Positions 1 to 34,400 of a stretch of DNA of 34,568 nucleotides are shown piece by piece (position 1 is the stretch's first letter; each line of letters begins with the position of its first letter). The stretch lies in IMG/VR virus record IMGVR_UViG_3300020456_000081, positions 1 through 34,568 of that record; one strand, 5' to 3'. A model generated the notes under the pieces. That model was not told where the DNA came from, did not search any database, and saw nothing but the letters and a program-made list of their open reading frames with translations. The position numbers were made by a program, and so were the translations under genes. Origin of the DNA: a virus.

Positions 1-198
1 TATGTTTACACAAAACCTAACTTTGATCCTGCACCTAGAATAATACAAGAATGTAAGTGGTTAGGAAAAGAAGTGATTTATTTAAGAGATAAATCTATTA
101 AAGATGGTGGACCTATATATTGGGAAAGACCTGCAAAATGTTTAACTGAACAAAAAGATAAGATAGAAAATTTATTAAGATGGATAGAGAAGTTATAA
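1..198 (+). CDS. C-terminal fragment of an unknown protein (possibly a glycosyltransferase), cut by window edge
   Basis: An open frame runs from base 1 with no stop until the TAA at 196-198, giving 65 residues of a C-terminus. It contains the segments PAPRIIQECKWLGKEV and GGPIYWERP. This alternation of a small-residue loop, a helix and a short strand resembles the C-terminal half of GT-B glycosyltransferases, but the fragment is too short to assign. It overlaps the next gene by 19 bases, as the following genes overlap each other, so it belongs to the same operon. The start lies outside the window. The reading frame is fairly sure; the function is a guess from context. Confidence 0.6.
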   Translation, partial: YVYTKPNFDPAPRIIQECKWLGKEVIYLRDKSIKDGGPIYWERPAKCLTEQKDKIENLLRWIEKL

Positions 199-854
199 GC
201 GATACAAGTCCTATTTCTTTTTTTAGGCGTCCTAGAAATGGTATTAACGTTGATATTAGTTTTAGATGTCCTTTAGAATGTATGAGATGTCAAAGACAAA
301 CTAACTTTACATTTCATGGTAGAAAAGTATATGGTAAAGACGCAACAATGGATGAAGTAAAAAAATTAGCAGCTCACTTTACACAATTAAATTTTTGTGG
401 TCAGTTATCTGATCCTGTTCACCATCCTAAATTCCCAGAGATATTAGAGTATTTGTATAAGAATGGTAATGAGGCTTCAATACATAATGCGTCATCAGCT
501 AAATCAGAAAAATTTTATATAAAATGTTTTGAGGCACATCCTGACGCAAAATGGATATTTGGTATAGATGGTATGCCAGAAGAAAGTAGTATGTATAGAG
601 TTAACCAAGATGGTGAAAAACTATTTAAAATAATGTTAAAGTCAAAAGAGTATCTAACAAAATCACCATCATGGCAATATATCGTGTTTAGTTATAATGA
701 ACACAATATACAAAAGGCAAAAGACCTTGCAAAAAAACATGGTCTTATGATGATTATGTTACACTCGTCAAGGTGGATGGCTGAAAGTGATCCATTAAGA
801 CCTAAATCAACAGAATACAATTTACAATTTCAAGGTTATACTAGAGATGAGTAA
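180..854 (+). CDS. Radical SAM core protein lacking its own C-terminal auxiliary cluster domain
   Basis: 224 residues. The radical SAM signature CX3CX2C is seen as Cys30, Cys34 and Cys37 (FRCPLECMRC), which should bind the [4Fe-4S] cluster that cleaves S-adenosylmethionine. The GGEP-like position is replaced by FCGQLSDP. The protein is short for the family and ends before any SPASM/twitch-type cysteines; these appear in the next gene, which starts 8 bases before this stop (ATGAGTAA overlap). It is clearly paralogous to the protein at 31461-32231, sharing FCGQ(L/I)SDP, WQY(I)(V/I)F.YNEH and the following helix. The substrate is unknown. The operon context of sugar and transferase enzymes suggests modification of a sugar or small metabolite. 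A sequencing frameshift splitting one gene is unlikely because the right-hand paralogue is also split, in a different gene order. Confidence 0.88.
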   Translation: MDREVISDTSPISFFRRPRNGINVDISFRCPLECMRCQRQTNFTFHGRKVYGKDATMDEVKKLAAHFTQLNFCGQLSDPVHHPKFPEILEYLYKNGNEASIHNASSAKSEKFYIKCFEAHPDAKWIFGIDGMPEESSMYRVNQDGEKLFKIMLKSKEYLTKSPSWQYIVFSYNEHNIQKAKDLAKKHGLMMIMLHSSRWMAESDPLRPKSTEYNLQFQGYTRDE

Positions 855-1215
855 GTATAAAGGCAAATTTGTTGCTCAATGTATGAATGGTAAAATGCAA
901 TTGGCTATGAACAATAGAGGTGTTTTAATGCCTTGTTGTTGGTGTGACCATGAGCATACGTTAAGTACGCCTTTGTTTAAGAAGATGGAAAAAGTTAGTA
1001 AAGTAGCAGAAGCAGATAGTATTGAAGATATATTATTTTCAGATGAATGGCTAGAGTTTGAAAAGATAATGAGAGAAGGTGAGGCAGGCGATACAAGTAG
1101 AGTACCTGAAAATTGCATGTATCATTGTAGTGGTAGAGGTGAAGATGAAGAAAAAGTTAAAATAGAACATCACATAGACGAAATAGGAGAGTCGATAAAC
1201 AAACATAAAGCATGA
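847..1215 (+). CDS. Stand-alone cysteine-rich SPASM-like partner of the radical SAM protein
   Basis: 122 residues with cysteines at 12, 30, 31, 33, 90 and 94, arranged C-x17-CCWC-...-CX3C. The order and spacing resemble the auxiliary Fe-S cluster (SPASM-like) domain that normally follows the barrel in one polypeptide. Here it is a separate gene, translated from an ATG inside the end of the radical SAM gene, so the two are probably made together and may form a complex. Two related proteins (CCW and CX3C motifs) occur at 30711-31028 and 31010-31333. The Asp/Glu-rich middle and charged, cysteine-free C-terminal tail carry no further motif. An Fe-S or zinc-binding role is inferred from the cysteines. 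The antisense reading frame over this gene is a shadow. Confidence 0.85.
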   Translation: MSKYKGKFVAQCMNGKMQLAMNNRGVLMPCCWCDHEHTLSTPLFKKMEKVSKVAEADSIEDILFSDEWLEFEKIMREGEAGDTSRVPENCMYHCSGRGEDEEKVKIEHHIDEIGESINKHKA

Positions 1216-1958
1216 AAAAATATTTAATAGTAAGTGGTTGTAGTTGGGGTGATCCTAACTTTATTTCAGCAGAACATCCTGATATGGATACGTCTTGGAA
1301 AATGTGGCCTGAAATATTAGCAGAGAAGTTAGATATGCAACTTATAAATCTTTGTAAATCAGGACAAGGACAAGAATATATCTATAGCTCATTGATTGAT
1401 AGATTACAAACTATACCTACTAATCAAATAGGATTAATGATAGCTGCATGGTCAACAGCACCTAGACGTGATTATCAAATGTCAGGATTTCAAACAAGAA
1501 AACAATTATGGACTGCCGATCAATTTGATTGGCGTGGTTGTATTGAATATTGGATAGATAGAAGTATGAGATATTATTACTCGTTTCAATCTGTTATGGA
1601 ATTACACCGAATACCTTACAGACAAATACAAATGGTTCACTTGTACACAGGTTATATGTGGGAACAATTAAAAAAAAGATCAGGTCATCCTACACATAAA
1701 GATAATGAAGACCTTTTACAAGGTGATGACTATGTATTTAAACAAGAGTATAAAAAAATGTGCAAAGAACAAATATTAAGTAATCCTTATTATAATAAAA
1801 TAAATAAAAACTTTATTGATTGGGATAGAGTTAGCATACCAAGTGAAGTCAATAGATTAGGACCTAATTATATAGAAAGAATATCAGAAAGAGATAAACA
1901 TCCAAATGAAAACGGCCAAAAACAGATAGCGAGGTTAATATATGACAGGTTGGGATAG
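1212..1958 (+). CDS. SGNH/GDSL-like hydrolase or acyl-esterase
   Basis: 248 residues. The N-terminal strand and turn SGCSWGD (residues 8-14) matches the GCSxT/GDS block I of SGNH hydrolases, with Ser11 as the likely nucleophile. A glycine-containing block (KSGQGQEYIY) follows near residue 50, and the C-terminal DKHPNENGQ gives the Asp228-x-His230 pair of block V. Members of this superfamily add or remove acyl groups on sugars, lipids or peptides. No signal peptide is visible, so it should act in the cytoplasm. It starts in an ATGA overlap with the preceding gene and overlaps the aminotransferase by 17 bases. O-acetyl or acyl editing of an operon-made sugar is a plausible role, not shown. Confidence 0.78.
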   Translation: MKKYLIVSGCSWGDPNFISAEHPDMDTSWKMWPEILAEKLDMQLINLCKSGQGQEYIYSSLIDRLQTIPTNQIGLMIAAWSTAPRRDYQMSGFQTRKQLWTADQFDWRGCIEYWIDRSMRYYYSFQSVMELHRIPYRQIQMVHLYTGYMWEQLKKRSGHPTHKDNEDLLQGDDYVFKQEYKKMCKEQILSNPYYNKINKNFIDWDRVSIPSEVNRLGPNYIERISERDKHPNENGQKQIARLIYDRLG

Positions 1959-2997
1959 AGAATATCTAGCAAATAAAAATGAATATTTAAAACTTTTTGA
2001 TAATGTTATGCAAAAAGAAAACGAAAGAAACGTAGAGTTTTTAGAAAAACGTATTGCAAAAACTATTGGTAGAAAATTTGCAGTTGCAGTAAATAGTGGT
2101 ACAGACGCTTTACATTTTTCACTTATCGTAAACAATATAGGACCTGGTGATGAGGTATTAGTTACAAACTTTTCTTGGATATCTTCAGCGTCAGTTGTAT
2201 CAATGGTAGGTGCAACGCCTGTATTCTGTGACGTAGATTTAGAAACAAATCATATATCAGTTGATAGTATGAAACGTATGTATTCAGATAAAGTAAAAGC
2301 AATTATATATCCACACTTGTTTGGTAATATATCTGACATGCAATATATTCAAAAGTTTTGTGAAGAAAAAAATATAAAACTTATAGAGGATGCTTGTCAA
2401 TCGTTTGGTGCAAATAGAAATGGTCAATATGCAGGTACATATGGCGATGTTTCAACATTAAGTTTTAATGCAAACAAACCAGTTGCAGGATTGGCTGGGG
2501 GTGGTGCGTTTCTTACAGATAATAAAGAAGAAGCGAATTTAGTTAGAAAGTTAAGAAGACACGGCAACAATGAAGTACTAGGATATAACTCTAAAATGTT
2601 AGCAATCAATGCTGAGTTTATTAATTTTAGAATGGACAAAATGCACGAATGGCAAGATATGAGATTTAGAGTTGCAAAAAGATATACTAATAATCTAAAA
2701 GATTTACCTGTGACTATACCACATGTAGATGAAGTGGTAAATCATTGTTATCACAAATACGTAATTAGATTAGAAAACAAAGAAACTAGGGATAATTTAC
2801 AGAAAAGACTTAACGCTAATGTACATTATCCTAAACCTATATCAGAAAACCCTATGTATAAATCTATTCTAAATAGGAAAGATAACTGCTTGAATAGTCA
2901 ATTAATATGTGATACAATATTAACATTGCCTATTCATCCATATTTAACAGATGATGAGATTGATAAAACTTGTACAAGTATAATGATGACGGTATGA
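1942..2997 (+). CDS. DegT/DnrJ/EryC1/StrS family PLP-dependent sugar aminotransferase
   Basis: 351 residues, near the usual 360-400 of the family. It shows the cofactor and substrate motifs of fold-type I sugar aminotransferases: NSGTDAL (51-57), the EDACQSFGA block (149-157) and SFNANKPVAG with Lys179 as the expected PLP Schiff-base lysine, followed by GGGAF. The family transfers an amino group, usually from glutamate, to a keto-sugar nucleotide to make amino-deoxy sugars. The gene overlaps its neighbours by 17 and 4 bases. It is the strongest pointer to amino-sugar synthesis in this operon. No sugar dehydratase is visible next to it; the epimerase at 9154-9882 or host enzymes might supply the keto-sugar. 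Confidence 0.93.
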   Translation: MTGWDREYLANKNEYLKLFDNVMQKENERNVEFLEKRIAKTIGRKFAVAVNSGTDALHFSLIVNNIGPGDEVLVTNFSWISSASVVSMVGATPVFCDVDLETNHISVDSMKRMYSDKVKAIIYPHLFGNISDMQYIQKFCEEKNIKLIEDACQSFGANRNGQYAGTYGDVSTLSFNANKPVAGLAGGGAFLTDNKEEANLVRKLRRHGNNEVLGYNSKMLAINAEFINFRMDKMHEWQDMRFRVAKRYTNNLKDLPVTIPHVDEVVNHCYHKYVIRLENKETRDNLQKRLNANVHYPKPISENPMYKSILNRKDNCLNSQLICDTILTLPIHPYLTDDEIDKTCTSIMMTV

Positions 2998-3311
2998 AAA
3001 TAATAATTAGTCCTGACATAACCACATTTTGCTATATTGATGAACATGATAATATGGTTGATATAACAGATCAGATACCATACAGATTAAGAGAATTTGT
3101 AAAACGAATGAAGTTTATCTTTGACGATAAAATAATCATAGACAGGTCTTATACAGAAAAAGAAAATGAAGATGTTTACGAGTATCTTATAGAGAAAGCT
3201 TATGAAACAAAAGATTATTGTTTCAAAAAAACTAAATTTAAACCTAGACCTAAAGAAAAATTGTTAATTGCATTTAATAAATTATTCTTTAATAAATTTG
3301 ATAATAGATGA
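2994..3311 (+). CDS. Small protein of unknown function
   Basis: 105 residues starting MKIIISPDITTF. I chose the ATG at 2994 because it forms an ATGA overlap with the aminotransferase stop, the junction type used elsewhere in this operon; an in-frame TTG at 2970 would lengthen it by eight residues without better support. The protein is rich in Lys, Asp and Glu, has two isolated cysteines and no recognisable motif, and ends in a basic segment (KTKFKPRPKEK). It lies between the aminotransferase and a radical SAM gene, with a 4-base overlap at each end, so it is probably an accessory or small domain of this pathway. No function is assigned. Confidence 0.7.
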   Translation: MKIIISPDITTFCYIDEHDNMVDITDQIPYRLREFVKRMKFIFDDKIIIDRSYTEKENEDVYEYLIEKAYETKDYCFKKTKFKPRPKEKLLIAFNKLFFNKFDNR

Positions 3312-4162
3312 TTAATTTAAAAGAAATACAACAGAATTATTTGGCGATAGATTTTTTTATGTCTATGTCTTGTAATAAAGATTGTCATTATTGTACATCA
3401 TACACTTTAGAGATGAGAAATTTGACGGTTGACCTTGACTTTTTAAAACGAGTATTACATTATTTAAGAAATTATAAAATACGTGTTTGTTTACTAGGTG
3501 GTGAACCTGGTCTAATAAAAAATTTAGATGATGTTATTGCTGAAGTAAAAAAGAATCCTAATCACGTGCCTTCAGTACTTTCAAACTCTTTTGTACGTAA
3601 AAGATATCCACATATACTAAAAGATCCTGATATACTTTATGTTGAACATAACATATTAGATTTTTACGAAGACGGAATTAAAAAACTAGGTAATTTAGAT
3701 AAGTTAGCACCTTATGGTTTTATACAACCAAATGAATATAACAATTACAATCTATGTGTAAAAACACCTAATTACTTTAAATACAAAGATAAGTTTCCTG
3801 AAGAAATGAAAATGTTAAATCATAAAAACACAATGTGGAAATCATTTAATGGTAGAACACCTAATAAAGATGATGTATTAGCAGTACACACTCAAGCTGC
3901 AGAAATAGATCGTAAGATGTGTGCTGCTTTTCCTATGGTGCCTGTTATTGATTTTGAGAAAAGACATATAGTACATTGTAGTAAAAAGTTTGCTAACAAT
4001 CCTATTGTTTCAAGGAACTTTGAGATCACACAAGAAAACATAGACAAGATGATGAATTTTAGATTATTTAAATATGAGAACTATTGTAAAACATGTATGG
4101 AATGGGTAGAACCTAAAGGTCACTTTCCATTATCAAAATATGAGGCTATACTAAATGAATAA
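3308..4162 (+). CDS. Radical SAM protein with its own C-terminal SPASM-like cysteines
   Basis: 284 residues. Cys22, Cys26 and Cys29 (SCNKDCHYC) form the CX3CX2C cluster motif, and GGEP at 64-67 is the canonical SAM-binding motif. The C-terminal third has cysteines in KMCAAFPM, IVHCSKK and YCKTCMEW, an arrangement that recalls the separate small proteins at 847-1215 and 30711-31333, here fused to the core. It has a 4-base overlap upstream and an 8-base overlap with the carbamoyltransferase downstream. The substrate is unknown; a sugar or carbamoylated intermediate would fit the neighbours. It differs in sequence from the other two radical SAM proteins in the window, so it is a separate subfamily. 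Confidence 0.88.
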   Translation: MINLKEIQQNYLAIDFFMSMSCNKDCHYCTSYTLEMRNLTVDLDFLKRVLHYLRNYKIRVCLLGGEPGLIKNLDDVIAEVKKNPNHVPSVLSNSFVRKRYPHILKDPDILYVEHNILDFYEDGIKKLGNLDKLAPYGFIQPNEYNNYNLCVKTPNYFKYKDKFPEEMKMLNHKNTMWKSFNGRTPNKDDVLAVHTQAAEIDRKMCAAFPMVPVIDFEKRHIVHCSKKFANNPIVSRNFEITQENIDKMMNFRLFKYENYCKTCMEWVEPKGHFPLSKYEAILNE

Positions 4163-5669
4163 AATATATGCAGTTGCTTTAAATTTACACGATCACAATA
4201 CCTATGATGGTGTACATCATAATCAAAGAGAAAGACACACACGATTTAAACATAACTTACCATACAAGGCAGAGGCATATGCTCATCAATCAGATATACT
4301 TAACGTAAGTGATTATACCTTGAATGATGAGTTTACTGAAGATTATTTTAAAAAACCAGATGACGCTATACTAGCATTTACATATACGTTTGGTGGCATT
4401 AGAAAATCAAAACAAGAATTATTAGATACAGTACTTAAAGGCCATGATAAAATATTTGAATACGATCCTAAAAAATTATGGGATCACTATTACAAAGATG
4501 ATATTTACTTCATAGATCATCATCAATCACACGCCGCTTATGCACTTATCAATTCAGGTTATGAAGAGTCTGATATACTTGCGATAGATGGTATAGGTTC
4601 TAAATTTAGATGTGTATTCTTTGACAAAGAGCAAAACTTAATTGATCTATCAGATAAGTTACCTATTGGTTGGTTATGGAATCACATGTCAGGCCTTACA
4701 GGTTTTGGTACACTTGGTGCAAGTAAACTTATGGGTAAAGTAGGATATGGTAAGTTTAGTAGATATTACTATAATATGTTTGAAATAATACTAGATGGTC
4801 CTATTACTGAAAAAAAACAAGAACATTTTAAAATGATTGATATACAAACGCATGGTGTAGATGACTTGGCATATACATTACAAAAATTTACTTTAGATAG
4901 AATAAAAGAACATGTATATCCATTAAAGACTTGTGATAACTTATGTATTGCAGGTGGCGTTGCTTACAATGGTTACATGAATGAAGAATTTACTAAACAT
5001 TATAAAAATGTATTTGTACCACCTGCTGTTGGTGATGAAGGACAGGCTATTGGTGCATATCAACACGCTGATTTTGTCTTAAATGAAAATATACATAAAT
5101 CAGAATTGTATGCTGGTAAAAAGTATGAGTATGTAGGAGTAGAAAAAGTAAATTACAAAGAAGTGGCACAAGCAATTGCTGATGGTAAAATAGTAGGTTG
5201 GTTTCAAGGTAAATCAGAAAGTGGTAATCGTGCATTAGGTAACAGGTCAATACTTGCAGACCCACGTAATCCTGATATAAAAGAAATTATTAATAACACA
5301 ATAAAATTAAGAGAAGACTTTAGACCTTTTGCACCTGTAGTATTAGAAGAACACTACAAAGAATATTTTGATACAAGAGGTGGTCCTAGTCCTTATATGT
5401 CTAGGATATGTAAAGTAAAAACTAAACTAGTGCCTGGTGTTACACACGTTGATAATACGGCTAGAATACAAACTATAAATAGGAATGATAATGAAAAGTT
5501 TTATGATATAGTGAACGAGTTTTATAAGATAACAGGCATACCTATGTTACTCAATACGAGTTTCAATTGCCAAGAGCCAATCGTAGAAGCACCTCATCAC
5601 GCATTAAGAACTTTTAGAAGAACTGCTTTAGATTTGCTCGTTATAAATGAATGGATTATAAGAAAATGA
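4155..5669 (+). CDS. NodU/CmcH/TobZ-type O-carbamoyltransferase
   Basis: 504 residues. The N-terminal Kae1/ASKHA-like domain is marked by DHHQSHAAYA (121-130, metal-binding His122/123/126 region), DGIGSK (145-150), and later AGGVAYNG and PAVGDEGQAIGA. The C-terminal carbamoyltransferase domain has GNRALGNRSILADPR, DFRPFAPVVL and the NTSFN motif. Family members transfer carbamoyl from carbamoyl phosphate, with ATP, to a hydroxyl group of a sugar or antibiotic (NodU on Nod factors, TobZ on tobramycin). Some are slightly longer, but all key blocks are present and the gene looks intact. The acceptor is presumably made by neighbouring genes. It overlaps both neighbours (8 and 19 bases). Confidence 0.95.
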   Translation: MNKIYAVALNLHDHNTYDGVHHNQRERHTRFKHNLPYKAEAYAHQSDILNVSDYTLNDEFTEDYFKKPDDAILAFTYTFGGIRKSKQELLDTVLKGHDKIFEYDPKKLWDHYYKDDIYFIDHHQSHAAYALINSGYEESDILAIDGIGSKFRCVFFDKEQNLIDLSDKLPIGWLWNHMSGLTGFGTLGASKLMGKVGYGKFSRYYYNMFEIILDGPITEKKQEHFKMIDIQTHGVDDLAYTLQKFTLDRIKEHVYPLKTCDNLCIAGGVAYNGYMNEEFTKHYKNVFVPPAVGDEGQAIGAYQHADFVLNENIHKSELYAGKKYEYVGVEKVNYKEVAQAIADGKIVGWFQGKSESGNRALGNRSILADPRNPDIKEIINNTIKLREDFRPFAPVVLEEHYKEYFDTRGGPSPYMSRICKVKTKLVPGVTHVDNTARIQTINRNDNEKFYDIVNEFYKITGIPMLLNTSFNCQEPIVEAPHHALRTFRRTALDLLVINEWIIRK

Positions 5670-6499
5670 TAGAAAGAGAAAATTTAAAATATCTAAAAAA
5701 TATTGTTGACTTACAAAATAAAAATGTAAACTATAGAACACTTGACGATATTGTTTATTGTATAAAAGAGGACGATCAGTTTGGTTTTATGCACAATATT
5801 TTAAGTGCTACAAATGATAAACTAGATTATAGATTACTTGATAATGTATTGACTACAATTAAAAAAGAGTCAGATGTTGAGAATATTCTCATGGATTCAT
5901 TTAGTACACCACAAGTAAATGCTAAAATGAATATTATAAATCACGTAGATAAACTAGGTTTAATAAATGAACAATCTGAAATAGTTATATTTGCAGGTTG
6001 GTTTGGTAGTATTTTTGTACCAGCGCTAGCGCCAAGAGTTAAAAAGATAACTTTGATTGATATGGACGAAAGGGTTATTAATGTTGCAAAAAATAGATTA
6101 TTTATGGACTATGAAAACGTAGAGTTTATAGTAGGTGATATATTTGAAACATTTAAAAAAGAATACGAAACTACTGATCTATTCATTAATACTTCTTGTG
6201 AACATATGAGACCTATGTCTGAATGGGGGCCTAAAGGACCTAGATCATTATACAAAGACTCGCCATTTGGCGAACCAGTTACACGTAAAGTACCATGGTG
6301 GACTAGAATGAAAAAAGGCGCTCATTTTGCTTTTCAATCAAACGATATGTTTAATATTGATACACATATAAATTGTGTAAATGATATAAATGAGTTTGAA
6401 AGACAGTTACCTGAAAATGCAAAAGTTAAAGTTAAAGATGAAATTAATGATGAAAGAGGAACAAGATTTACGTTAATAGGTGAAATATGCAAAGAGTAG
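5651..6499 (+). CDS. Class I SAM-dependent methyltransferase-like protein
   Basis: 282 residues. A Rossmann-type nucleotide-binding stretch runs from about residue 110: IVIFAGWFGS (motif I, glycine-poor variant), ITLIDMDE at about 133-140 (the acidic residue that would hold the SAM ribose), then FIVGDIFE and LFINTSCEHM. The first 100 residues have no known motif, are helical in character and rich in Asn and Asp. The protein probably methylates a product of the operon; N- or O-methyl transfer cannot be told apart. It starts 19 bases inside the carbamoyltransferase and overlaps the next gene by 13. The fold call is reasonably firm; catalytic activity is inferred because motif I is divergent. 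Confidence 0.72.
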   Translation: MDYKKMIERENLKYLKNIVDLQNKNVNYRTLDDIVYCIKEDDQFGFMHNILSATNDKLDYRLLDNVLTTIKKESDVENILMDSFSTPQVNAKMNIINHVDKLGLINEQSEIVIFAGWFGSIFVPALAPRVKKITLIDMDERVINVAKNRLFMDYENVEFIVGDIFETFKKEYETTDLFINTSCEHMRPMSEWGPKGPRSLYKDSPFGEPVTRKVPWWTRMKKGAHFAFQSNDMFNIDTHINCVNDINEFERQLPENAKVKVKDEINDERGTRFTLIGEICKE

Positions 6500-7425
6500 T
6501 TTACAGTTTATACATTGATATACCAAAAGAAGAAATAGATATATTTGATAAAAATTTACTTAAAGAAGGTGATACACCTATTAATATTAATACGAAAAAT
6601 AAATTTAAAATACATTATGGTCAACTTTGTGCTTGTAAAGAATATTATGCTAAAGAAATAGGTGCCGACTTTAAAATGTTTGAGTACGGTCCTGATTATA
6701 TTGTATATTCAAATCAACTAAAAGAAAAGTATCCTTATCTTACAACTTACAATATAATAAACTTTTACAAAATACATTTAATGTATCAACTAGGTAAAAC
6801 CTATGATGAAATTTTATATTTAGATTTTGATGTAGTGCCTCTAAAAAATGATAACTTCTTTGAACATTGGGATCTCACAAAAGGTATTGCAGTTTTAAAT
6901 AATAACGATAGAACGATACCGATTGAAAGGGTAACTGATACATCACAAACAATAAGAAGTCCATCATCAAAATATTTCAATGCTCAGGCAATGTTATTTG
7001 AAAAAGGTTTAAGTACAAAAAATGATGTTATCAATACAGGTATAGTAGGTATCAATAAAGAACATTTAGATAAATTAGATTATTTTAATCACTTTGAAGA
7101 TAATCTTACAATGATGAAACATTTAAAAATACAAACAAGAGAAGAAGTAATATTTCCAGATGATGAAACTGGAGAAGTTAAAATAAGAAAACATAACGAC
7201 AAGTATGTTACCAATATATTTCCTGATAAGGTAAGACAATACTTTGGTTGGGATAATGAAACATTATTTTCAGTTAAATTAAAAGAAAACAAAGTGCCTG
7301 TACAATGGTTAGACGATAAGTGGCATTACTTTCTATCTAGTCAAGGTTTTATACCTAAAGAAACTATATTAGTCCACGCTATCAATAAAGATTTTGACTT
7401 GTGTTGGAGAAGGTATAATGCTTAA
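6487..7425 (+). CDS. DxD glycosyltransferase-like protein
   Basis: 312 residues. YLDFDVVPL carries Asp113-x-Asp115, preceded by a helix (NFYKIHLMYQLGKTYDEI). This is the GT-A arrangement in which the DxD motif holds the metal and nucleotide sugar. NTGIVGINKEHL and a late HAINKDFDLCW segment (the C-terminal His is also common in these enzymes) fit the same fold. No membrane segment or signal peptide is seen. It starts with a 13-base overlap. It is the longest of three consecutive DxD proteins, which could act in series on one glycan. The donor sugar and acceptor are unknown. Confidence 0.72.
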   Translation: MQRVVYSLYIDIPKEEIDIFDKNLLKEGDTPININTKNKFKIHYGQLCACKEYYAKEIGADFKMFEYGPDYIVYSNQLKEKYPYLTTYNIINFYKIHLMYQLGKTYDEILYLDFDVVPLKNDNFFEHWDLTKGIAVLNNNDRTIPIERVTDTSQTIRSPSSKYFNAQAMLFEKGLSTKNDVINTGIVGINKEHLDKLDYFNHFEDNLTMMKHLKIQTREEVIFPDDETGEVKIRKHNDKYVTNIFPDKVRQYFGWDNETLFSVKLKENKVPVQWLDDKWHYFLSSQGFIPKETILVHAINKDFDLCWRRYNA

Positions 7426-8137
7426 GATATGTACGGTATACTTTGATGGTTTTTACACACCTGATTACGTTGAAAGACTACACGATAGTTTACGTAAACA
7501 CTCATCAATAGACTTTGAGTTTGTATGTTTAAGTGATACAGATGTCAAAGCAGATGTAGTCCTACCTTATAATCACAATAGTAATATAGTAAAACATTGG
7601 CACAAACTAAAATTTTTTAGTCCTCAATTTGCATATCAGAATCCAGGTGATGATATAATCATTATGGATATAGATCAACTTATAGTAAACAATGTAGATG
7701 AATTACTAGGTCGTCCTGTATCAGATAATGAACTATTAACATATGGTCAATGGTGGGAAAACAAACTAGGTATTAATGGTGGTTTCTATAAGTTTAAATC
7801 AGGCAGTTTAAAATATGTATGGGATGACTTTGCACTCAATCCTGAATATTGGCAATTACATTTCTATAACGAAGGCACCGTACATAAGAAATATTATGGC
7901 GAACAAAATTATGTTAAATGGAAAATATTAGAACATAAAGCAAAATTATCTAAAACACCTAGTCAATGGATAGCAAAATATACAGATGACTTTGCAGAAA
8001 ACTTAAAACTAAATCAAATGTACATGCAAAAATTCAATACTGATTTTATGATATTAGATAAAGAAGTCAACGAGAAACTAAAAGTTATACATTTTACAGG
8101 AGTAGGAAGAAAAATAAATGCGGATTATTTGTTGTAG
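7418..8137 (+). CDS. DxD glycosyltransferase-like protein, paralogue of the next gene
   Basis: 239 residues from the ATG at 7418, which has a GGAGAAGG ribosome binding site at 7406-7413 and an 8-base overlap with the previous stop. An upstream in-frame TTG (7394) is not needed. IIIMDIDQL holds Asp84-x-Asp86. A WW pair, an N-G motif, a Gly, and Y-V-W-D-D-F follow at about residues 112-138 and are also found in the 188-aa protein downstream. The early HKLKFFSP helix and the late VIHFTGVGR (His near the C-terminus) fit GT-A enzymes. Cytoplasmic, with no membrane segment. It overlaps the next gene by 20 bases. Confidence 0.7.
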   Translation: MLKICTVYFDGFYTPDYVERLHDSLRKHSSIDFEFVCLSDTDVKADVVLPYNHNSNIVKHWHKLKFFSPQFAYQNPGDDIIIMDIDQLIVNNVDELLGRPVSDNELLTYGQWWENKLGINGGFYKFKSGSLKYVWDDFALNPEYWQLHFYNEGTVHKKYYGEQNYVKWKILEHKAKLSKTPSQWIAKYTDDFAENLKLNQMYMQKFNTDFMILDKEVNEKLKVIHFTGVGRKINADYLL

Positions 8138-8684
8138 ATTTGGCGATAAGTTTAATCAATGGCACGTTGATAACTTAAAACATATGATAGATGAATACTC
8201 TGGTCTAAAGTATGATAGTTTTGAAGTTATAGAAGACGACCTATATGGCAATTGGTTTAACAAATTTCAGATGTACGATAAGTTCCGAGATGGTGAGAAC
8301 CTGTATTTTGATTTAGATGTGGTAATATATGATAAGTTACCTAATCTTGTAAGAAAAGATTTTACGTTATTAGATGATACGTGGTGGAGAGAACCTGCTC
8401 ATACACCTTTAAACTCATCTATAGTATCATGGACTGGTGATGTATCTTATATATGGGATAAGTTTAAAGAACAAGACTCTTTCTACGTGGATACCTACAC
8501 TAGAGGTAGTGATGAATGGTACTATAAATTCATTGACTATAAAACGTATGAAAGAGTTTGTCCTTCAATTAAAGACTATATGTACAACAAACCTCCACAA
8601 TTTAGTATATGTACATTAGGTCAAATGCAACATATTATGGAAGAAGGTTGGACTGGTTGGTATTCAGACTATTTTTTAAGATAG
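8118..8684 (+). CDS. Short DxD glycosyltransferase-like protein
   Basis: 188 residues, the smallest of the three tandem DxD proteins. LYFDLDVVIYDKL gives Asp65-x-Asp67. The WW, N-S, G and YIWDKF positions match those of the preceding protein, so the two arose by duplication. It lacks a C-terminal His/Gly segment like the one its neighbour has, so it may be a reduced or specialised transferase. It is the last plus-strand gene of the operon. Its stop lies 9 bases inside the end of the oppositely oriented 8676-9164 gene, leaving no room for a terminator between them. Confidence 0.68.
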   Translation: MRIICCRFGDKFNQWHVDNLKHMIDEYSGLKYDSFEVIEDDLYGNWFNKFQMYDKFRDGENLYFDLDVVIYDKLPNLVRKDFTLLDDTWWREPAHTPLNSSIVSWTGDVSYIWDKFKEQDSFYVDTYTRGSDEWYYKFIDYKTYERVCPSIKDYMYNKPPQFSICTLGQMQHIMEEGWTGWYSDYFLR

Positions 8685-17900: not shown

Positions 17901-18048
17901 CTATTTGATTTTGTATTTGTGTTTGAGATTGAGTTAACTCTCTAGCCTGAACAGCAAATGCAGGTCTAAAAAGTATTCTATGAAACTTTTTTGACTCTGT
18001 AAAATCGTCATAGTAAGGACTGACATTAAAATCAGTTGGACTTGGCAT
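11980..18048 (-). CDS. Very large DUF4815-type tail/baseplate structural protein
   Basis: 2022 residues. The N-terminus (SPYYDDFTESKKFHRILFRP, then AVQARELTQSQTQIQNQIERL and GAMIIPGE) matches the DUF4815 type known from marine T4-like phages. The middle is Ser/Thr/Gly-rich and carries several copies of a FTTGETVTGGTSGATATV-like repeat (about residues 470 and 585, weaker copies near 90-140). Around residue 1500 the GYHDPLAQTFLIDDEGGVF segment and a following jelly-roll-like region are typical of these proteins. It stands directly after gp8, where T4 has gp9-gp12, so it probably forms or anchors peripheral baseplate or fibre structures. It is intact, with no break in the frame over 6 kb. Confidence 0.85.
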   Translation of the reverse strand: MPSPTDFNVSPYYDDFTESKKFHRILFRPAFAVQARELTQSQTQIQNQIERLSDHIFDKGAMIIPGEIGYDLKYYAVKLTSKSVSDISTYIDTTLTGGTSGVTAKVVNAVATDGTDPDTLFVKYFKTASDGAQIPFTHGETITSSNTSTAVVASCHTGAAAQIKEGVYYINGYHVQVSAQTLILEKYSATPSVRVGLTVTESFVTPGDDTSLNDNAQSVSNTNAPGAHRFKIELTLAKKALNNTEDSNFYELLRLSNGVLQNQVRTTEYAVLEDTLARRTFDESGDYVVRPFDIDVREHLISGTNRGIYTSSQGGDATKLAVGFAPGKAYVKGYEINTIATTFIDVDKARDFDTQNNFNTRFDVGNFVNVTNVYGSPDISTASGVEGFKALTLHNTATSSRGTANTGSNSGITTIGRAKSRGFEYSSGTASANIFSNASITDAVYKHYLFDIVMFTHLNIKTAQAFTTGETVTGGTSGATATVQAVSTTESATITAATKANPCVVTSTNKFKEGQQVTITGVGGMTELNGNVYTVRNPSGSNFELYDTDGTTSINSGSFTTYTSGGAAAHGVVIVSNVQGTFAAGETITGGTSSNTAAIQADAVGLKAVTSHDISSVKQLAMAGSPTFTADTSLDATSGDNATLTGTLSIANSGTAVTGFNTRFTDELRVGDSISFTTNAGTSRTRIVEAIISNSSITLSAAVGGSDVSTKTIATRRRAKLQSPEKNVSIFKLPYENIKTLKTTANSNASDTTYTFRKHEIKTLTGDGIATFSAGVNETFADLAEGDYTISITSTGSGGTGAVGDVLSLTGNNHEGGAIFALNGAKTTLTIDFGANYAAHNIKALVTLNKTVGTSKTKTLNSNETLAVSTQATIQSGVISLAKADVIAINSIYMAPDFSTAATTSHTDITDRFDLDTGQRDNFYDVGRIKLKTGALTPTGRLLVNFNYYSHSAGDYFDVDSYSAISYTDIPAYTSNNTGARYELRDSLDFRPRVDDASTINSGNQDRSFDGTGASVVQPIKFNSDIRSDFEYYLGRVDKIFLDKDGNFKVLKGASSLEPRVPGTLDNAMHLYTLFLPAYTLDTSEVGIEHVDNKRYTMRDIGRIEKRIETTEYYTQLSLLETAAQNLQIQDANGFDRFKNGFVVDNFTGHNIGDVGNNDYKVSIDYANGELRPTFHEDAIQLIERDDDGTAIAADDRTAHNYQKTGDLITLPYTEETLIDQPYASKAINVNPFGVFTWIGSIELTPPGDEWKETERAPELVINNPNGSWDNLTKNTGNSSTLSEFPMSTVWNSWQDTWTGRPVETERKNVGTYKKRGGHGWRVMAKQEVTTAQQVSQTRTGIRAVAVPETVRTSIGDRVVSVAFVPFIRSRTLTFVATRLKPNTRVYPFFDNIDITSYVTPNGGALGGNLVSDANGKVQGTFAIPDPKTSSNPRWRTGQRLFRLTSSSTNSLTNANVETAANVEYVARGLLETVRETIISSREARVEMRSVTENQTITRTSTRTEERQVGYHDPLAQTFLIDDEGGVFLTSIDIFFSTKDAAIPVTVQIRDVVNGYPGQKILPFSEVTKNPGDVTTSTDGTSATKFTFASPVYIQSNVEYCFVVMANSQDYNAYVARIGEVSLDTNRTISAQPYAGVLFKSQNGMTWSAEQNEDMKFKLRRAEFSNVTGEVTLTNDTLGTRTLKNNALRTTNGSKVIRVFHPNHGMHGTSNNVTIAGVPSGTHNGLAHDKINGTYTAISNVTLDSYDITSTSSSNATSTGDIGGAAVTATQNRVFDVLNLGGIQTVTLPDTNIDYYVRTTTGRSVHGSETEFTLTTAANKLAVINNDNIAFTAPQMVASEINETNESISGGKSFYTILELTTSNTKLSPVLDTQRISAFTIQNRLNNPSSSNTPDFVTDTANTGTSSAAVYCTKPVLLENNSKALDIRLTANIRATSEVEMYYRVATDGDKLDDLSWTPFNTDGSPDSSIVPAEDDTTFKEYKYTATDINDFTSFQLKIVMKGSNSSYPPVLRDMRGIALAV

Positions 18049-29897: not shown

Positions 29898-30701
29898 ATG
29901 AACTGGAAGAATGAATATCATGCGGAGATTAAAAGTGCTATAGATGTATGTAAAAAAGCACAACGTAATTATAATTTAAATAAAAGGTTGCCTCCTAAGG
30001 ATTTAGAGACCTTAATTTATGTAGCGACAAATAGTCCATCTAAACAAAATGAAACACATTTTAATTTACGAGTATATACCGATGTTGAAAAAATAACAGG
30101 CATATACAAAAGAACAAAAAACTTTACGTTTTCTACCAACACTAGGACTGAAGAAATATTTACAACAACAGGTGTACAAAAAGACCAAAAGTATTCTGTA
30201 ACTAATTCTCAAATAAAAGCAAACGCTGTATTTGTGTATTGTGATGATACACGAAACATACGTGGTGGAACACACTTAACAGCATTAAGAAAAGACGCAG
30301 GACCTATAGCCAAAGAAACATTATTTGAACAAAAGGCAATGTCAATAGGAATATCATCTGGTCAATTAGTTATGTCAGCAGCCTTACTAGGATACAAAAC
30401 AGGTTATTGTAGTGCCTTTGAAAAGACAGGTAAAGATTCAGTACAAAATTATCTACAAATAGAATCAGAGCCTAGACTAATTGTAGGTGTAGGATATCCA
30501 CACCCTAATTTAAAACGTAAACAACATCCAGATGTTTACAATAAAGATATAGGTATTGAAGAAGGCAAACATGGTAAAGATGATGAAAATTGGGTATACC
30601 CTAGTATGATAGAAGAAGATATGATAAAAGAAGCGTATTATAACTATCAAAAAATAGACGTATGGTTGAATGATACAAGGGTTGACATTAACAAGATTTA
30701 A
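29898..30701 (+). CDS. Nitroreductase-family flavoprotein
   Basis: 267 residues. The FMN-binding nitroreductase fold is indicated by ATNSPSKQNETHFNLRVYTD (about residues 37-56, the flavin-phosphate loop), SIGISSGQLVMSAALLGYKTG in the second half and PRLIVGVGYPHP near the end. The middle contains a long helix plus an insert typical of the family. These enzymes use NAD(P)H and FMN to reduce nitro groups, quinones or enamides; some act in small-molecule pathways. It is 9 bases upstream of the CCW protein genes, so it may supply electrons to the radical SAM system, but this is only context. No ribosome binding site is obvious. Confidence 0.82.
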   Translation: MNWKNEYHAEIKSAIDVCKKAQRNYNLNKRLPPKDLETLIYVATNSPSKQNETHFNLRVYTDVEKITGIYKRTKNFTFSTNTRTEEIFTTTGVQKDQKYSVTNSQIKANAVFVYCDDTRNIRGGTHLTALRKDAGPIAKETLFEQKAMSIGISSGQLVMSAALLGYKTGYCSAFEKTGKDSVQNYLQIESEPRLIVGVGYPHPNLKRKQHPDVYNKDIGIEEGKHGKDDENWVYPSMIEEDMIKEAYYNYQKIDVWLNDTRVDINKI

Positions 30702-30710: not shown

Positions 30711-31028
30711 ATGACTAAAGAGGTAAAAATAAAACCTAGATGTTTGACGTTTCCTATGACAGATCCTGAGCATATGCCAGCTGCATATACTTCAGATGGT
30801 TATATGTTACCTTGTTGTTGGTTAGATCAACCTGAACTAGATGATGATGTAAAAAAGATGGGATTAAAAGAAGAACACCTTGCTGTGAAAAACAATAGTA
30901 AATTGGAAGATATATATTCTTCTAAAGAATGGACTAATTTTTTTGATATAGTAGTTAATAAACCAGAAAAGGCGATGAATTATTGTCAATACAAATGTGG
31001 TAATGCAAAATGGATCCCAAAGACATAA
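30711..31028 (+). CDS. Stand-alone CCW/CX3C cysteine-rich protein, first of a tandem pair
   Basis: 105 residues with Cys11 (KPRCLTF), Cys35-Cys36-Trp (GYMLPCCWLD) and Cys92-x3-Cys96 (YCQYKCG). The set matches the next gene closely and the 847-1215 protein in pattern, and resembles an SPASM-like auxiliary cluster domain cut loose from its radical SAM core. The core is probably the protein at 31461-32231, with another CCW gene and a lipoprotein gene between. The start at 30711 is kept because the alignment with the paralogue begins only a few residues in; no ribosome binding site precedes it. Metal or cluster binding is inferred from cysteine placement. Confidence 0.8.
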   Translation: MTKEVKIKPRCLTFPMTDPEHMPAAYTSDGYMLPCCWLDQPELDDDVKKMGLKEEHLAVKNNSKLEDIYSSKEWTNFFDIVVNKPEKAMNYCQYKCGNAKWIPKT

Positions 31029-31333
31029 GAATTAAACCTAGGTGTTTAACCTTTCAACCTAAAAGTTATCATAAACCAGCTGCATATACAGCCGATGGAT
31101 TTATGTTACCTTGTTGTTGGTTAGATGATCCTAAAAACGACCACGCTTTAGAGAATGAGTTTCATATGAAAGATGAACACCTTGCTCTAAAAAATGTAGA
31201 GAAGATAGAAGACATATATGGTTCAAAGGAATGGGCACACTTCTTTGATACCCTAATAAATAACCCTAGTTGTGCTATGAAACAATGCCAATACAAATGT
31301 GGCAATAGAGAAAAAGACACATACAAAAGATGA
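31010..31333 (+). CDS. Stand-alone CCW/CX3C cysteine-rich protein, second of a tandem pair
   Basis: 107 residues with Cys12 (KPRCLTF), Cys36-Cys37-Trp (GFMLPCCWLD) and Cys93-x3-Cys97 (QCQYKCG). It is nearly collinear with the preceding gene (shared IKPRCLTF, KPAAYT/MPAAYT, DEHLALKN/EEHLAVKN, IEDIYGSKEW/LEDIYSSKEW), so the two arose by tandem duplication and then diverged. It starts 19 bases inside the previous gene and overlaps the lipoprotein gene by 4. Two copies could form a heterodimer or serve two substrates or cores. Confidence 0.82.
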   Translation: MDPKDIRIKPRCLTFQPKSYHKPAAYTADGFMLPCCWLDDPKNDHALENEFHMKDEHLALKNVEKIEDIYGSKEWAHFFDTLINNPSCAMKQCQYKCGNREKDTYKR

Positions 31334-31464
31334 GAATATTAATTATACTATCAATATTATTTTTAACTGCTTGTTCATCTACAGGTAAACCTATCAAAGA
31401 ACATAGACTAATTGTTAGTGCTGTAAAACAAGTTATATCACCAGGAATAGGATTCGGTAAATGA
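31330..31464 (+). CDS. Tiny lipoprotein
   Basis: 44 residues: MRILIILSILFLTAC followed by SSTGKPIKEHRLIVSAVKQ and ending SPGIGFGK. The signal peptide ends in the lipobox LTAC, so Cys15 would be lipidated, leaving a mature 30-residue peptide on the outside of the inner membrane or in the outer membrane. ATGA overlaps join it to the CCW gene before it and the radical SAM gene after it, which strongly supports a real gene. An outer-membrane spanin-like role is possible from size alone, but no inner-membrane partner gene is seen next to it. Confidence 0.72.
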   Translation: MRILIILSILFLTACSSTGKPIKEHRLIVSAVKQVISPGIGFGK

Positions 31465-32231
31465 ACGGACAAGAACTAGCAGAATTTTATATCAAAAATC
31501 AAAAGCTATCTTCACCTAATATGGATCTATCGCATAGATGTATATTACGTTGCCCACAATGTTTACGACAAAAGGTAGAAGGTCTTCCTAGAATAAAGAG
31601 ATCGTTTGATATAGGTAAACCAGAGTTTAGAAAAATATTAAATTACTATGATAATCAGATAACCTTTTGTGGTCAAATATCTGACCCAATCTATCATCCT
31701 GACTTTCTAGCATTTTTAGAAATGATGGACGGTTTAGGTAAAGGTTTAAGAATTGCAACTAATGGTACAAATGATAAGAGTGGTAATATGGATGATAAGT
31801 GGTGGGAAAAAGCATATAGTTATGGATTAGGAGAAAACTGTTGGTACTTTGGTGTTGATGGTTTAGATGAGAAATCAGAATTGTATCGTATAGGTTCCAA
31901 CTTTAAACAAGTATGGGAAACTATGAAAATGGGAGTACAATATGGTCACCCTATTGTATGGCAATATATTATCTTTGGTTATAATGAGCATGAAATAGAA
32001 CAAGCAAAAGAAATTGCTCATAAAGAAGGTATAACATTATTGTTAATAAAAACAAATAGAGGTTTTGATCCTAGAAGTAGAAATTTAAGAAAGAACGTAC
32101 AAAAGGCATATGAGAACTTTAATGTGCCTAGTGAAAAGAATAGAGTTAAAAAAATAAAAAGTGAAGAATACTTTAACGTTACACCAGAACTAGAACGTTG
32201 GAGAAAAGTAAGACAAGGAGCATTTAAATAA
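31461..32231 (+). CDS. Radical SAM core protein, paralogue of the 180-854 protein
   Basis: 256 residues. Cys27, Cys31 and Cys34 (RCILRCPQC) form the CX3CX2C motif. FCGQISDPIYHPDF, FGVDGLDEKSELYRIG and WQYIIFGYNEHEIEQAKEI align with the left-hand radical SAM protein, so they form one subfamily with SDP in place of GGEP. There are no auxiliary cysteines in the C-terminus, which ends in a Lys/Arg/Glu-rich tail; the stand-alone CCW proteins just upstream may complete it. It starts in an ATGA overlap and is followed after one base by the PP-loop gene. The substrate is unknown. Confidence 0.88.
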   Translation: MNGQELAEFYIKNQKLSSPNMDLSHRCILRCPQCLRQKVEGLPRIKRSFDIGKPEFRKILNYYDNQITFCGQISDPIYHPDFLAFLEMMDGLGKGLRIATNGTNDKSGNMDDKWWEKAYSYGLGENCWYFGVDGLDEKSELYRIGSNFKQVWETMKMGVQYGHPIVWQYIIFGYNEHEIEQAKEIAHKEGITLLLIKTNRGFDPRSRNLRKNVQKAYENFNVPSEKNRVKKIKSEEYFNVTPELERWRKVRQGAFK

Positions 32232-32232
32232 T

Positions 32233-33090
32233 ATGAAATTGACATACGGAAACCAGACAATAGATTTTTGGAATTTAAAAGAACAAATAGATAAATCACC
32301 ACATAAGGAACAAGCATTAAAAGATATTGTATTTGATGATGACTTTTTACCTAAACAAGTTGTAGTATCATTATCAGGTGGCGCTGACTCAGCGTCTGCT
32401 ACATATCTTACATTAAAACACTTTCCACAAATAGAGATATTTCCTTTTATGTGTAATGACGTAAACGCACCTAAAGACGCTGACGCAGCTAGAGAAATAA
32501 CTGAATACTTACAAAAGAAGTTTCCTAATGGTAAGTTAAATGATATTACTATAAAAGATTTTAACGATAGAGAAGTAGGTGGTTATTGGCCACAGGCAAA
32601 AGAATTAAAAGCTTCTGATCCTGAATTGTATGGTAATATGTCAATAGTAGCAATGGCAAAGATTATACAATTAGATGAATTAATACCTAACTTTATGAAA
32701 GAGTTTAAAGGACCTATAAGACTAGATGGTATGACAGCAAACCCACCTGTTAATATACGTATGGCATTTGGTGATTATGTAAAAGAAAGATTTCCAGAAT
32801 ATAACTTTAGTGCTAAAGATATTGAAAGAGTACAAGGTGAAACTAGACGTGATAATCCAAATAAAGCTAACATAACATATAACGTATATCAACCATACAT
32901 AAATGTAAATAAAAGATTTGTTGCTGGTGTATATAAAGAAGAAGGTTTAATGAAAGACTTATTTCCTATGACTAGAAGTTGTGTAGGTGGTAAAAATGAA
33001 ACTAGAGGCTTTAATGCTTGGTGTTGGAAGTGTTTCTGGTGTTATGAAAAAGCGTGGGCGTTTAATCTACCACGTACCCATAATGCTTAA
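32233..33090 (+). CDS. PP-loop ATP pyrophosphatase with a QueC-like C-terminal cysteine cluster
   Basis: 285 residues. VVSLSGGADSAS (SGG at 48-50, Asp52, Ser53) is the PP-loop of N-type ATP pyrophosphatases (QueC/ExsB, NAD synthase, PAPS-reductase relatives), which adenylate a substrate. The C-terminus has Cys250, then Cys264, Cys267 and Cys270 (AWCWKCFWCYE), spaced like the zinc-binding cysteines of QueC. A 7-deazaguanine or other base or thiol chemistry is thus possible, but no other deazaguanine gene is seen here, so I do not name it queC. It follows the radical SAM gene after one base, so the two are likely co-expressed. Its 3' end overlaps the sulfotransferase-like gene on the other strand by 29 bases. 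Confidence 0.82.
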   Translation: MKLTYGNQTIDFWNLKEQIDKSPHKEQALKDIVFDDDFLPKQVVVSLSGGADSASATYLTLKHFPQIEIFPFMCNDVNAPKDADAAREITEYLQKKFPNGKLNDITIKDFNDREVGGYWPQAKELKASDPELYGNMSIVAMAKIIQLDELIPNFMKEFKGPIRLDGMTANPPVNIRMAFGDYVKERFPEYNFSAKDIERVQGETRRDNPNKANITYNVYQPYINVNKRFVAGVYKEEGLMKDLFPMTRSCVGGKNETRGFNAWCWKCFWCYEKAWAFNLPRTHNA

Positions 33091-33910
33091 ATTCTTTTTC
33101 GTAGTATTCCATAAATCTACTTTTAGTTTTATCTAATTCTTCTTTCTTAAAATATACTTCTATTTTAAGATTTTTAAAAGGTGTTATTTTTTCTTGCATA
33201 ACAAAATTCTCTTGTCGTTCTAGTGGTACAAACCATTCTGTAAGTTTCTCATCATTTAAATCCTCTAACCATAGATCAAGTATATTACTATTTAAATAAG
33301 GACCTTTAATATAGAAGTTTCTTATTTCTTCTTCCATAAAACGTATATCAAATAAAAATTTTTGAAACAGATTTTCCCTATGTATAAATTTAGGATTAAG
33401 TGCTGCTATGGTTGACTTTAGCATACTTTCTCTACGTGTGCCTTCTAAATTATGCCAAGGGTGTACATCTTCAGGCATATTCAGTTTAAACGTAGCACCT
33501 GATTGTCTTTGAGCAAAATCTATAGATTTATGAAACAAATAACTTAACCATTGTTTATATAGTTTCTTACGTCTTAATAATACTATCTTATAACCATCAT
33601 AGAATTCCTTAAACCAATCAAACACATTTTCATATTGAGGCCTTGATAACATTCTTATTGGATCGCCTAAATGGGAAGCATGTGTAATAGTTAATATATC
33701 ATAACCAAAATTATCTCTAGCATATTCAAAAAAATGTATTACCTCATTTAAACGTATACCATCAGGTAATTCCTCTTCATTAAATAATTCAGATGAACGA
33801 GGAGTTAATATACCAAAATTTTTAAATGTTTCTCTAATATATTGACCTACGTAATGACTACCTGCTCTAGGTGTTGATATTAGTATAGGTGTCTTTGTTT
33901 TATCTATCAT
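33062..33910 (-). CDS. Sulfotransferase-like P-loop protein
   Basis: 282 residues. STPRAGSH (12-19) resembles the 5'-phosphosulfate loop of PAPS-dependent sulfotransferases, and KIVLLRRKKLYKQWLSYL (Arg113/114, Ser123) resembles the 3'-phosphate motif (R...S). Together they support a sulfotransferase-type fold, though the rest is divergent. It would move sulfate from PAPS to a hydroxyl, for example on a glycan. Its first ATG lies 11 bases inside the end of the 47-aa gene, and its 3' end overlaps the PP-loop gene. A different nucleotide-dependent function cannot be excluded. Confidence 0.74.
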   Translation of the reverse strand: MIDKTKTPILISTPRAGSHYVGQYIRETFKNFGILTPRSSELFNEEELPDGIRLNEVIHFFEYARDNFGYDILTITHASHLGDPIRMLSRPQYENVFDWFKEFYDGYKIVLLRRKKLYKQWLSYLFHKSIDFAQRQSGATFKLNMPEDVHPWHNLEGTRRESMLKSTIAALNPKFIHRENLFQKFLFDIRFMEEEIRNFYIKGPYLNSNILDLWLEDLNDEKLTEWFVPLERQENFVMQEKITPFKNLKIEVYFKKEELDKTKSRFMEYYEKEFKHYGYVVD

Positions 33911-34091: not shown

Positions 34092-34400
34092 TTAGACGCT
34101 AAAACTCTCACCACAGCCACAACTGCTTTTACTATTAGGATTAGTTATTTTAAATTCAGACGAAAATGTGTCTTCTACCCAATCAAGCGTTGTACCTAAT
34201 AAGTAAACCTCTAATTCTAAAGACGCTATTAATATATCACCTAATAGACAATCAGTATCTTCCCTTGTATCAGTAGTTTCCCACTTGTATTCAAAGCCTG
34301 CACATCCACCACCCTTAATATCTAATCTCACATAACGAGTGCCTGCCTTATTTGCTATGTAAGATAATCGTTTGATTGCGTTTTCTGTTAGCTCTAGCAT
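34092..34400 (-). CDS. A-type Fe-S cluster carrier (IscA/ErpA/HesB family)
   Basis: 102 residues, the usual length. The three conserved cysteines are present: Cys33 in GGGCAGF, and Cys94 and Cys96 in the C-terminal CGCGESF. The N-terminus LTENAIKRLSYI and the GTTLDWVEDTFSSEFKI region are family-typical. A-type carriers accept [2Fe-2S] or [4Fe-4S] clusters from a scaffold and pass them to client enzymes. In this window the likely clients are the radical SAM and CCW proteins, though host enzymes are equally possible. The ribosome binding site is weak (AGAAAAGA). Confidence 0.95.
   Translation of the reverse strand: MLELTENAIKRLSYIANKAGTRYVRLDIKGGGCAGFEYKWETTDTREDTDCLLGDILIASLELEVYLLGTTLDWVEDTFSSEFKITNPNSKSSCGCGESFSV

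Follow-up and report, generated by a model that had tools for sequence, protein, structure and literature searches.

In known twitch and SPASM radical SAM enzymes, the auxiliary domain is a C-terminal extension of the radical SAM core and belongs to the same chain. Positions 30711-32231 of the virus record IMGVR_UViG_3300020456_000081 differ in this respect, since two short cysteine-rich proteins are encoded there separately and upstream of a radical SAM core. The locus raises the question of what these proteins are, whether they belong to the core beside them, and what the resulting enzymes would make. The record as a whole, which we call the window, is 34.6 kb long; it contains T4-like baseplate genes, and its left end is collinear with the Pelagibacter phage Mosig EXVC030M, an isolate of the Kyanoviridae. 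The genes of this locus (locus B) and its edges are as follows.

29898..30701, plus strand: nitroreductase-family flavoprotein (PF00881, E 6.6e-10)
30711..31028, plus strand: CCW1, putative free-standing twitch protein, 105 aa (PF13186 SPASM match, conserved residues)
31010..31333, plus strand: CCW2, putative free-standing twitch protein, 107 aa (PF13186 and TIGR04317 matches, cysteine pattern)
31330..31464, plus strand: lipoprotein, 44 aa, with signal peptide and lipobox LTAC
31461..32231, plus strand: coreB, radical SAM core, 256 aa, CX3CX2C at C27, C31 and C34 (PF04055)
32233..33090, plus strand: QueC-like or NAD-synthase-like PP-loop ATPase with a C-terminal four-Cys site (PF02540, 9e-6; PF06508, 2e-5)
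34092..34400, minus strand: A-type Fe-S carrier, IscA/ATC-like (by sequence and phrog_17776; the C-terminus, SSCGCGESF, is A-type-like by eye)

The four ORFs described in the initial annotation were all present between 30711 and 32231, and their ends overlap throughout, by 19 nt between CCW1 and CCW2 and by 4 nt both between CCW2 and the lipoprotein and between the lipoprotein and coreB. The QueC-like ORF starts 1 nt past the coreB stop. The order of coreB and the QueC-like gene is kept in nearly all loci of the window's group, and the QueC-like gene is the third conserved member of the B module. The nitroreductase gene, the usual upstream neighbour of the module, recurs in relatives, and its product is a candidate electron donor or pathway step. 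The A-type Fe-S carrier gene lies on the opposite strand; across the window's group of loci, 1-2 kb separate it from the B module. Also on the opposite strand, past the QueC-like ORF, is a conserved gene (33062-33910, minus strand) whose P-loop-like start, LISTPRAGSHYV, recalls sulfotransferases; a Pfam search with this gene gave no match. Arrangements of the locus B type recurred in about 30 viral contigs, and dN/dS was 0.03-0.30 for every ORF compared. On both counts the arrangement is not due to chance.

The CCW proteins and the radical SAM cores

The window carries a second radical SAM core with a CCW protein (locus A).

180..854, plus strand: coreA, radical SAM core of the A module, 224 aa, CX3CX2C (33% identity to coreB)
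847..1215, plus strand: CCW3, putative free-standing twitch protein of the A module, 122 aa (PF13186, E 0.02; C-x12-G-x4-CC...CX3C)

CCW3 sits downstream of coreA with an 8-nt overlap, and the coreA orthologues in G001 and G010 are 71-100% identical. The homology of the two cores, already proposed in the initial annotation, extends over about 208 aa (E 4e-32). Membership of coreB in the radical SAM superfamily follows from its match to PF04055 (E 2.8e-7; 31.3 bits, above the cut-off of 29.5), while coreA has the CX3CX2C motif but no Pfam match of its own. Among 22 relatives of coreB, the only invariant cysteines of the protein are C27, C31 and C34 together with C70, and the C27-x3-C31-x2-C34 motif is kept in 22/22. 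Because the cores share just the motif cysteines and C70, the CCW protein should be the source of any auxiliary cluster.

CCW1 and CCW2 are 59% identical (E 6e-41), and CCW3 is about 30% identical to each of them (E 3e-6 and 1e-8). The Pfam SPASM family PF13186 was the top match of CCW1 (20.4 bits, E 6e-4) and CCW2 (15.3 bits, E 0.025) and the second-best match of CCW3 (15.6 bits, E 0.02), with none of the three reaching the gathering cut-off of 21.5 bits. CCW2 also matched the SPASM region of TIGR04317 (E 0.011), and NCBIfam gave the CCW proteins weak matches to a tungsten-oxidoreductase maturase, in its SPASM part, and to a family of radical SAM proteins with an N-terminal twitch. The SPASM/twitch pattern consists of C-X(9-15)-G-X4-C followed by more paired cysteines. 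The layout of CCW2 is C12-x17-G30-x4-C35-C36...C93-x3-C97; residues invariant across 38 CCW relatives include C12, G30, P34, C35, C36, W75, F78 and C93, and C97 is nearly invariant. All 47 aligned twitch sequences showed the SPASM/twitch cysteine pattern, as C-x(11-18, once 23)-G-x4-C-C with a late C-x3-C, the spacing from the first cysteine to the glycine being 11-14 in A-type and fused sequences and 16-18, with one of 23, in the B-type. On sequence grounds, the CCW proteins are detached twitch/SPASM domains, of the sort expected to bind one auxiliary cluster, as a twitch domain does (PMC9012708). In the window, no twitch was found in the same chain as a core and C-terminal to it, the two being encoded by separate ORFs.

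The AF2 model of CCW2 (pLDDT 85) is compact, with a beta hairpin and helices. A Foldseek search of the PDB with this model alone gave no match, perhaps because the domain is too small, and profiles of the CCW proteins and of the cores found nothing meaningful in the PDB by sequence. The model of a fused relative, the L094 core plus twitch (pLDDT 74.5, with the twitch part at moderate confidence), matched MoaA, SuiB, anSME, EpeE, SkfB and BtrN over nearly its full length (E 6e-8 to 3e-4), and BlsE was also on its match list. The CX3CX2C core motif and the auxiliary-cluster cysteine pattern are shared with BtrN, MoaA, PqqE, SuiB and anSME.

Split, fused and paired forms

An IMG/VR profile scan returned 240 CCW relatives, from which we kept 80 loci with 100 CCW ORFs. 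In these loci, 95 of the 100 ORFs were either fused to a core or no more than 400 bp from it; the remaining five lay at contig ends or were CCW1 copies about 430 bp away from a core. This result upholds the view of the initial annotation that the CCW proteins belong with radical SAM cores; CCW ORFs lacking such a neighbour, which it had named as evidence against that view, were sought among the 100 and not found. In a reverse scan begun from independently sampled cores (n=97), 62 cores were split from their twitch, 27 were fused to it, and 8 had no detected twitch. Three of these 8 were at contig edges. L185, scored as twitch-less, has a diverged twitch ORF right behind the core, and L173 and L174 are its close relatives, leaving L192 and L194, related cores seemingly without a twitch. 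In L192, the core (2492-3082) is directly followed by a 540-aa ORF resembling a B12-binding radical SAM protein.

Fusions took both orders. Nine ORFs of L094-L112 (330-433 aa) contain an A-type core and a twitch in one chain, and L185 also encodes a fusion with the twitch before the core, as they are ordered in locus B; both domain orders thus occur, each of them fused and split. On a tree of 73 non-redundant cores, parsimony gave about 10 changes among the fused, split and absent states, against 23 with shuffled labels; the nodes of this tree differ in support, and some "absent" labels are mistaken, as with L185 and its diverged twitch. By this difference, the state is inherited yet switches repeatedly. 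The initial annotation took the split for an evolved state and not an error, and our comparison leads to the same conclusion: the split is kept across many contigs, fused counterparts hold the same cluster position in relatives, and a pair of coreA and CCW3 has been tandem-duplicated as a unit in G007 and G008. The fused twitches were aligned together with the cores, with the free twitches left out. In L113 (4152-5372), a CCW domain stands behind an N-terminal part of about 280 aa that resembles a separate cluster protein without a Pfam match.

The initial annotation had proposed alignment and trees of core and partner as a check on co-divergence. Distances between twitches correlated with those between cores (r = 0.92, 44 pairs, FastTree trees; 0.79 within the B-type and 0.84 within the A-type plus fused), and 0 of 2000 permutations gave a correlation as high. 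This fits A-type and B-type twitches that track their own cores as cognate sets, a co-divergence that is also expected from shared phage ancestry or whole-genome common descent. The interchangeable partners envisaged earlier found no support. The A-type twitches, fused and split, did not group as one clade in the twitch tree, where several nodes were weak.

Wherever a locus extends far enough, CCW2 is found next to coreB, of which it is the conserved cognate partner. CCW1 is a paralogue of CCW2. The tandem duplication reported in the initial annotation is therefore real for the window, but it is limited to the window's subclade (the window and 5 IMG/VR contigs), and most relatives have one CCW2 upstream of coreB and no tandem copy. 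CCW1 keeps all the invariant Cys, Gly and Trp residues and evolves faster than CCW2 (dN/dS of 0.22-0.30 versus 0.03-0.13), and its branch position has a weak support of 0.36. In L009 and L023 (the latter judged by similar sequence), the CCW1 slot upstream of CCW2 is taken by a single-chain radical SAM protein with an N-terminal twitch. It is conceivable, although we doubt it, that these phages have a class of radical SAM enzymes in which the auxiliary domain is a true subunit by itself, with CCW1 and CCW2 both serving a single core in the window's subclade, whether assembled into a heterotrimer or exchanged for one another to alter the reaction or the substrate.

The lipoprotein is joined to its neighbours by the 4-nt overlaps, as first described, but it is probably a mobile passenger gene in the operon. 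Its homologues lie upstream of CCW2 in L017-L020 and L032, L004 and L023-L031 lack it, and its position between twitch and core is taken by a MazG gene in L089-L092. On this patchy distribution, we rejected the lipoprotein as an obligate part or substrate.

One cluster in two places

Between locus A and the baseplate genes, the window contains the rest of the A half (1212..8684), with the following genes.

Start 1212, plus strand: SGNH-like protein (by eye only)
Start 1942, plus strand: DegT aminotransferase (Pfam/PHROG)
Start 2970, plus strand: small ORF
Start 3308, plus strand: third radical SAM protein (Pfam/PHROG)
Start 4155, plus strand: carbamoyltransferase (Pfam/PHROG)
Start 5651, plus strand: methyltransferase (Pfam/PHROG)
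Start 6487, plus strand: GT8 (Pfam/PHROG)
Start 7394, plus strand: glycosyltransferase-like protein (Pfam/PHROG)
Start 8118, plus strand: unassigned ORF

The two loci had been described as a pair about 30 kb apart, and the distance in the window is 31.3 kb. In the nine records long enough for both loci, the window included, A and B are 30.0-34.6 kb apart, and the four records in which this search showed only a B core are short enough for the A locus to fall beyond their end. In more distant relatives (L089-L092, L140 and L141), the B and A modules are contiguous. The cluster shared among relatives comprises CCW2, coreB and the QueC-like gene together with coreA, CCW3 and genes for the SGNH-like protein, DegT, radical SAM protein, carbamoyltransferase, methyltransferase and GT8. 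The order in L140 is two radical SAM proteins with N-terminal twitches, CCW2, MazG, coreB, the QueC-like gene, nitroreductase, coreA, CCW3, two SGNH-like genes, DegT, a small ORF, the third radical SAM gene, carbamoyltransferase, methyltransferase, another core with a twitch, GT8, further cluster genes and tail genes. Since A and B are contiguous in relatives, the loci of the window are best read as halves of one cluster, which in this lineage flank the baseplate genes; the same contiguity contradicts two independent, parallel systems. In L124 (5267-7639), a B-type core is fused to a carbamoyltransferase in a 790-aa protein.

The N-terminal-twitch radical SAM proteins (L140:284-3399, L009:4214-5635 and L141:13328-14734) are encoded just upstream of CCW2 or nitroreductase. 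Three of them, from L140 and L009, scored 269-300 bits against NF033640, and the L141 protein was judged by its similar start. Members of NF033640 have the twitch before the core, as in locus B, but they are single chains of about 400-540 aa, and coreB (21.1 bits) and CCW3 (17.3 bits) fall far short of the cut-off of 170.

On the minus strand of the window, positions 11980-18048 encode a 2022-aa protein (phrog_358) in the same position as the gene annotated VrlC in phage Mosig. In pelagimyophages, glycosyltransferases, with GT8 foremost, and radical SAM cassettes abound in the host-recognition region, which adjoins VrlC and the tail fibres (PMC7029224). Up to 12 radical SAM enzymes can be encoded by T4-like marine viruses that have an A-type Fe-S carrier (PMC5332604).

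Proposed enzymes, pathway and product

The most probable reading, which we hold with good confidence, is that CCW2 (or CCW1) and coreB constitute one two-polypeptide enzyme of the twitch type, that CCW3 and coreA constitute a second, and that both act in one pathway. The core would be a partial TIM barrel that binds SAM on the [4Fe-4S] cluster ligated by CX3CX2C and generates a 5'-deoxyadenosyl radical. We infer that the twitch protein forms a complex with the core, supplying in trans one auxiliary [4Fe-4S] cluster through Cys12, Cys35 or Cys36, Cys93 and Cys97, and that it caps the barrel at its open end; from there it would either accept an electron from the substrate radical or keep the substrate in place. 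The nearby A-type Fe-S carrier may help to load the clusters. Both enzymes would be steps of a phage-encoded pathway in the host-recognition region beside the baseplate genes, together with the nitroreductase, several radical SAM proteins, the QueC-like ATPase, SGNH, DegT, the carbamoyltransferase, the methyltransferase and the glycosyltransferases; in the window's lineage, this putative pathway would have been divided in two by the structural block.

The product is judged from the neighbouring genes. Because a DegT aminotransferase, a carbamoyltransferase, a methyltransferase, an epimerase and glycosyltransferases are encoded nearby, our best guess is an amino-sugar or surface-glycan pathway. 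The likeliest product would be an unusual amino-sugar or a decorated glycan, for the host surface or for the virion, and we put the chance of a sugar or glycan product at about even. PADLOC defence models gave no convincing match.

In another reading, which we regard as unlikely, the pairs would carry out RiPP-type or protein maturation on a ribosomal product, for instance the small lipoprotein or a structural protein of the phage. Many SPASM enzymes act on peptides (PMC9012708), the fold of the fused relative matches SuiB, SkfB, EpeE and anSME, and a small secreted ORF lies within the operon. However, that ORF, the lipoprotein, is absent or elsewhere in most relatives, no small ORF of the precursor type was seen conserved beside the twitch-core pair across loci, and the small-molecule enzymes MoaA and BtrN are matched as well. 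BtrN is a twitch enzyme that oxidises an aminocyclitol (PMC9012708). The "modification system" first proposed found no support if it is taken to mean protein modification, the neighbours being sugar and small-molecule enzymes.

A modified nucleoside or nucleotide, for instance a deazaguanine-like base or an antibiotic-like nucleoside, appears quite unlikely as the product. The QueC-like ATPase that adjoins coreB would in that case use a carboxylate from the radical SAM enzymes, and the version of the cluster's third radical SAM protein found in a relative matches QueE and viperin weakly, with BlsE in the fold list pointing the same way. Against this, the QueC-like ORF scored only 20.5 bits with the QueC equivalog TIGR00364, far below the cut-off of 150.3, and its NAD-synthase match is equally good; as it passed the cut-off of Pfam QueC (24.7 bits against 22) and missed that of TIGR00364, the ORF at 32233-33090 can be called a QueC-like ATPase only. 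Neither QueD nor QueF was noticed among the genes, and the glycosyltransferases and DegT fit a sugar better. In L113, L118, L121 and L130, the QueC-like ATPase is found within longer ORFs of 417-699 aa.

A role of the CCW proteins outside the enzyme, as zinc fingers or redox carriers that are only co-transcribed with the cores, is very improbable. They are short and cysteine-rich, their SPASM scores are under the Pfam cut-off and the isolated domain has no Foldseek match, but zinc fingers are disfavoured by the SPASM match itself and the fold search, and neither role fits the fusions to cores in both orders, the co-duplication of twitch and core, the lack of any core-less CCW among the 100 ORFs or the CX(11-18)GX4C pattern. 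We give practically no credence to the idea that an ordinary fused enzyme looks split through misassembly or a frameshift error, despite the existence of fused relatives and the metagenomic origin of many contigs, as dozens of contigs show identical junctions between the ORFs, the twitch/core order is reversed in locus B, a MazG or lipoprotein gene lies between twitch and core, and the isolate Mosig EXVC030M carries the A pair split.

Both twitch radical SAM enzymes and phage regions rich in radical SAM genes are already known. For a twitch domain encoded apart from its core, we found no description in the open-access literature. The bacterial GeoRSP-type systems, in which a SPASM-like protein is encoded beside a radical SAM gene, are a lead only, and a literature search on them found nothing. 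In Mosig EXVC030M, genes Mosig_00082-00092 include coreA, CCW3, SGNH-like, DegT, radical SAM and carbamoyltransferase genes in the order of the window, under labels such as "molybdenum cofactor biosynthesis enzyme" and "hypothetical protein". Mosig_00084 is the counterpart of coreA and Mosig_00085 that of CCW3, in the only cultured relative of the A pair that we found; the B module was not found in the complete Mosig genome. Campylobacter phages CP220, CPt10 and F379 have many radical SAM genes in an exchangeable region (PMC2853527). Their cores are weakly similar to those of the window (about 25%), and the F379 radical SAM genes that we read encode single-chain enzymes whose ORF also includes the second Cys site.

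Most relatives in this enzyme class have core and partner in one chain, and direct evidence for a catalytic role of the auxiliary clusters had long been elusive according to a 2021 review of SPASM/twitch enzymes (PMC9012708). A two-piece form could be separated and mixed to probe the role of the partner. With a natural two-piece enzyme, fused relatives in both orders and a tandem second partner, the auxiliary domain could be omitted, re-added, mutated or swapped without artificial cutting. The comparison also shows that many radical SAM genes of marine T4-like phages are members of a single biosynthetic cluster that recurs in the host-recognition region.

A scan of genome contigs with one strict peptide pattern gave no bacterial source, and its sole relative was a phage contig binned into a MAG. 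This contig, L139 (CAJWSQ010000087.1), is filed under an uncultured Flavobacteriales MAG; it looks like a T4-like phage contig and carries a coreA-twitch pair.
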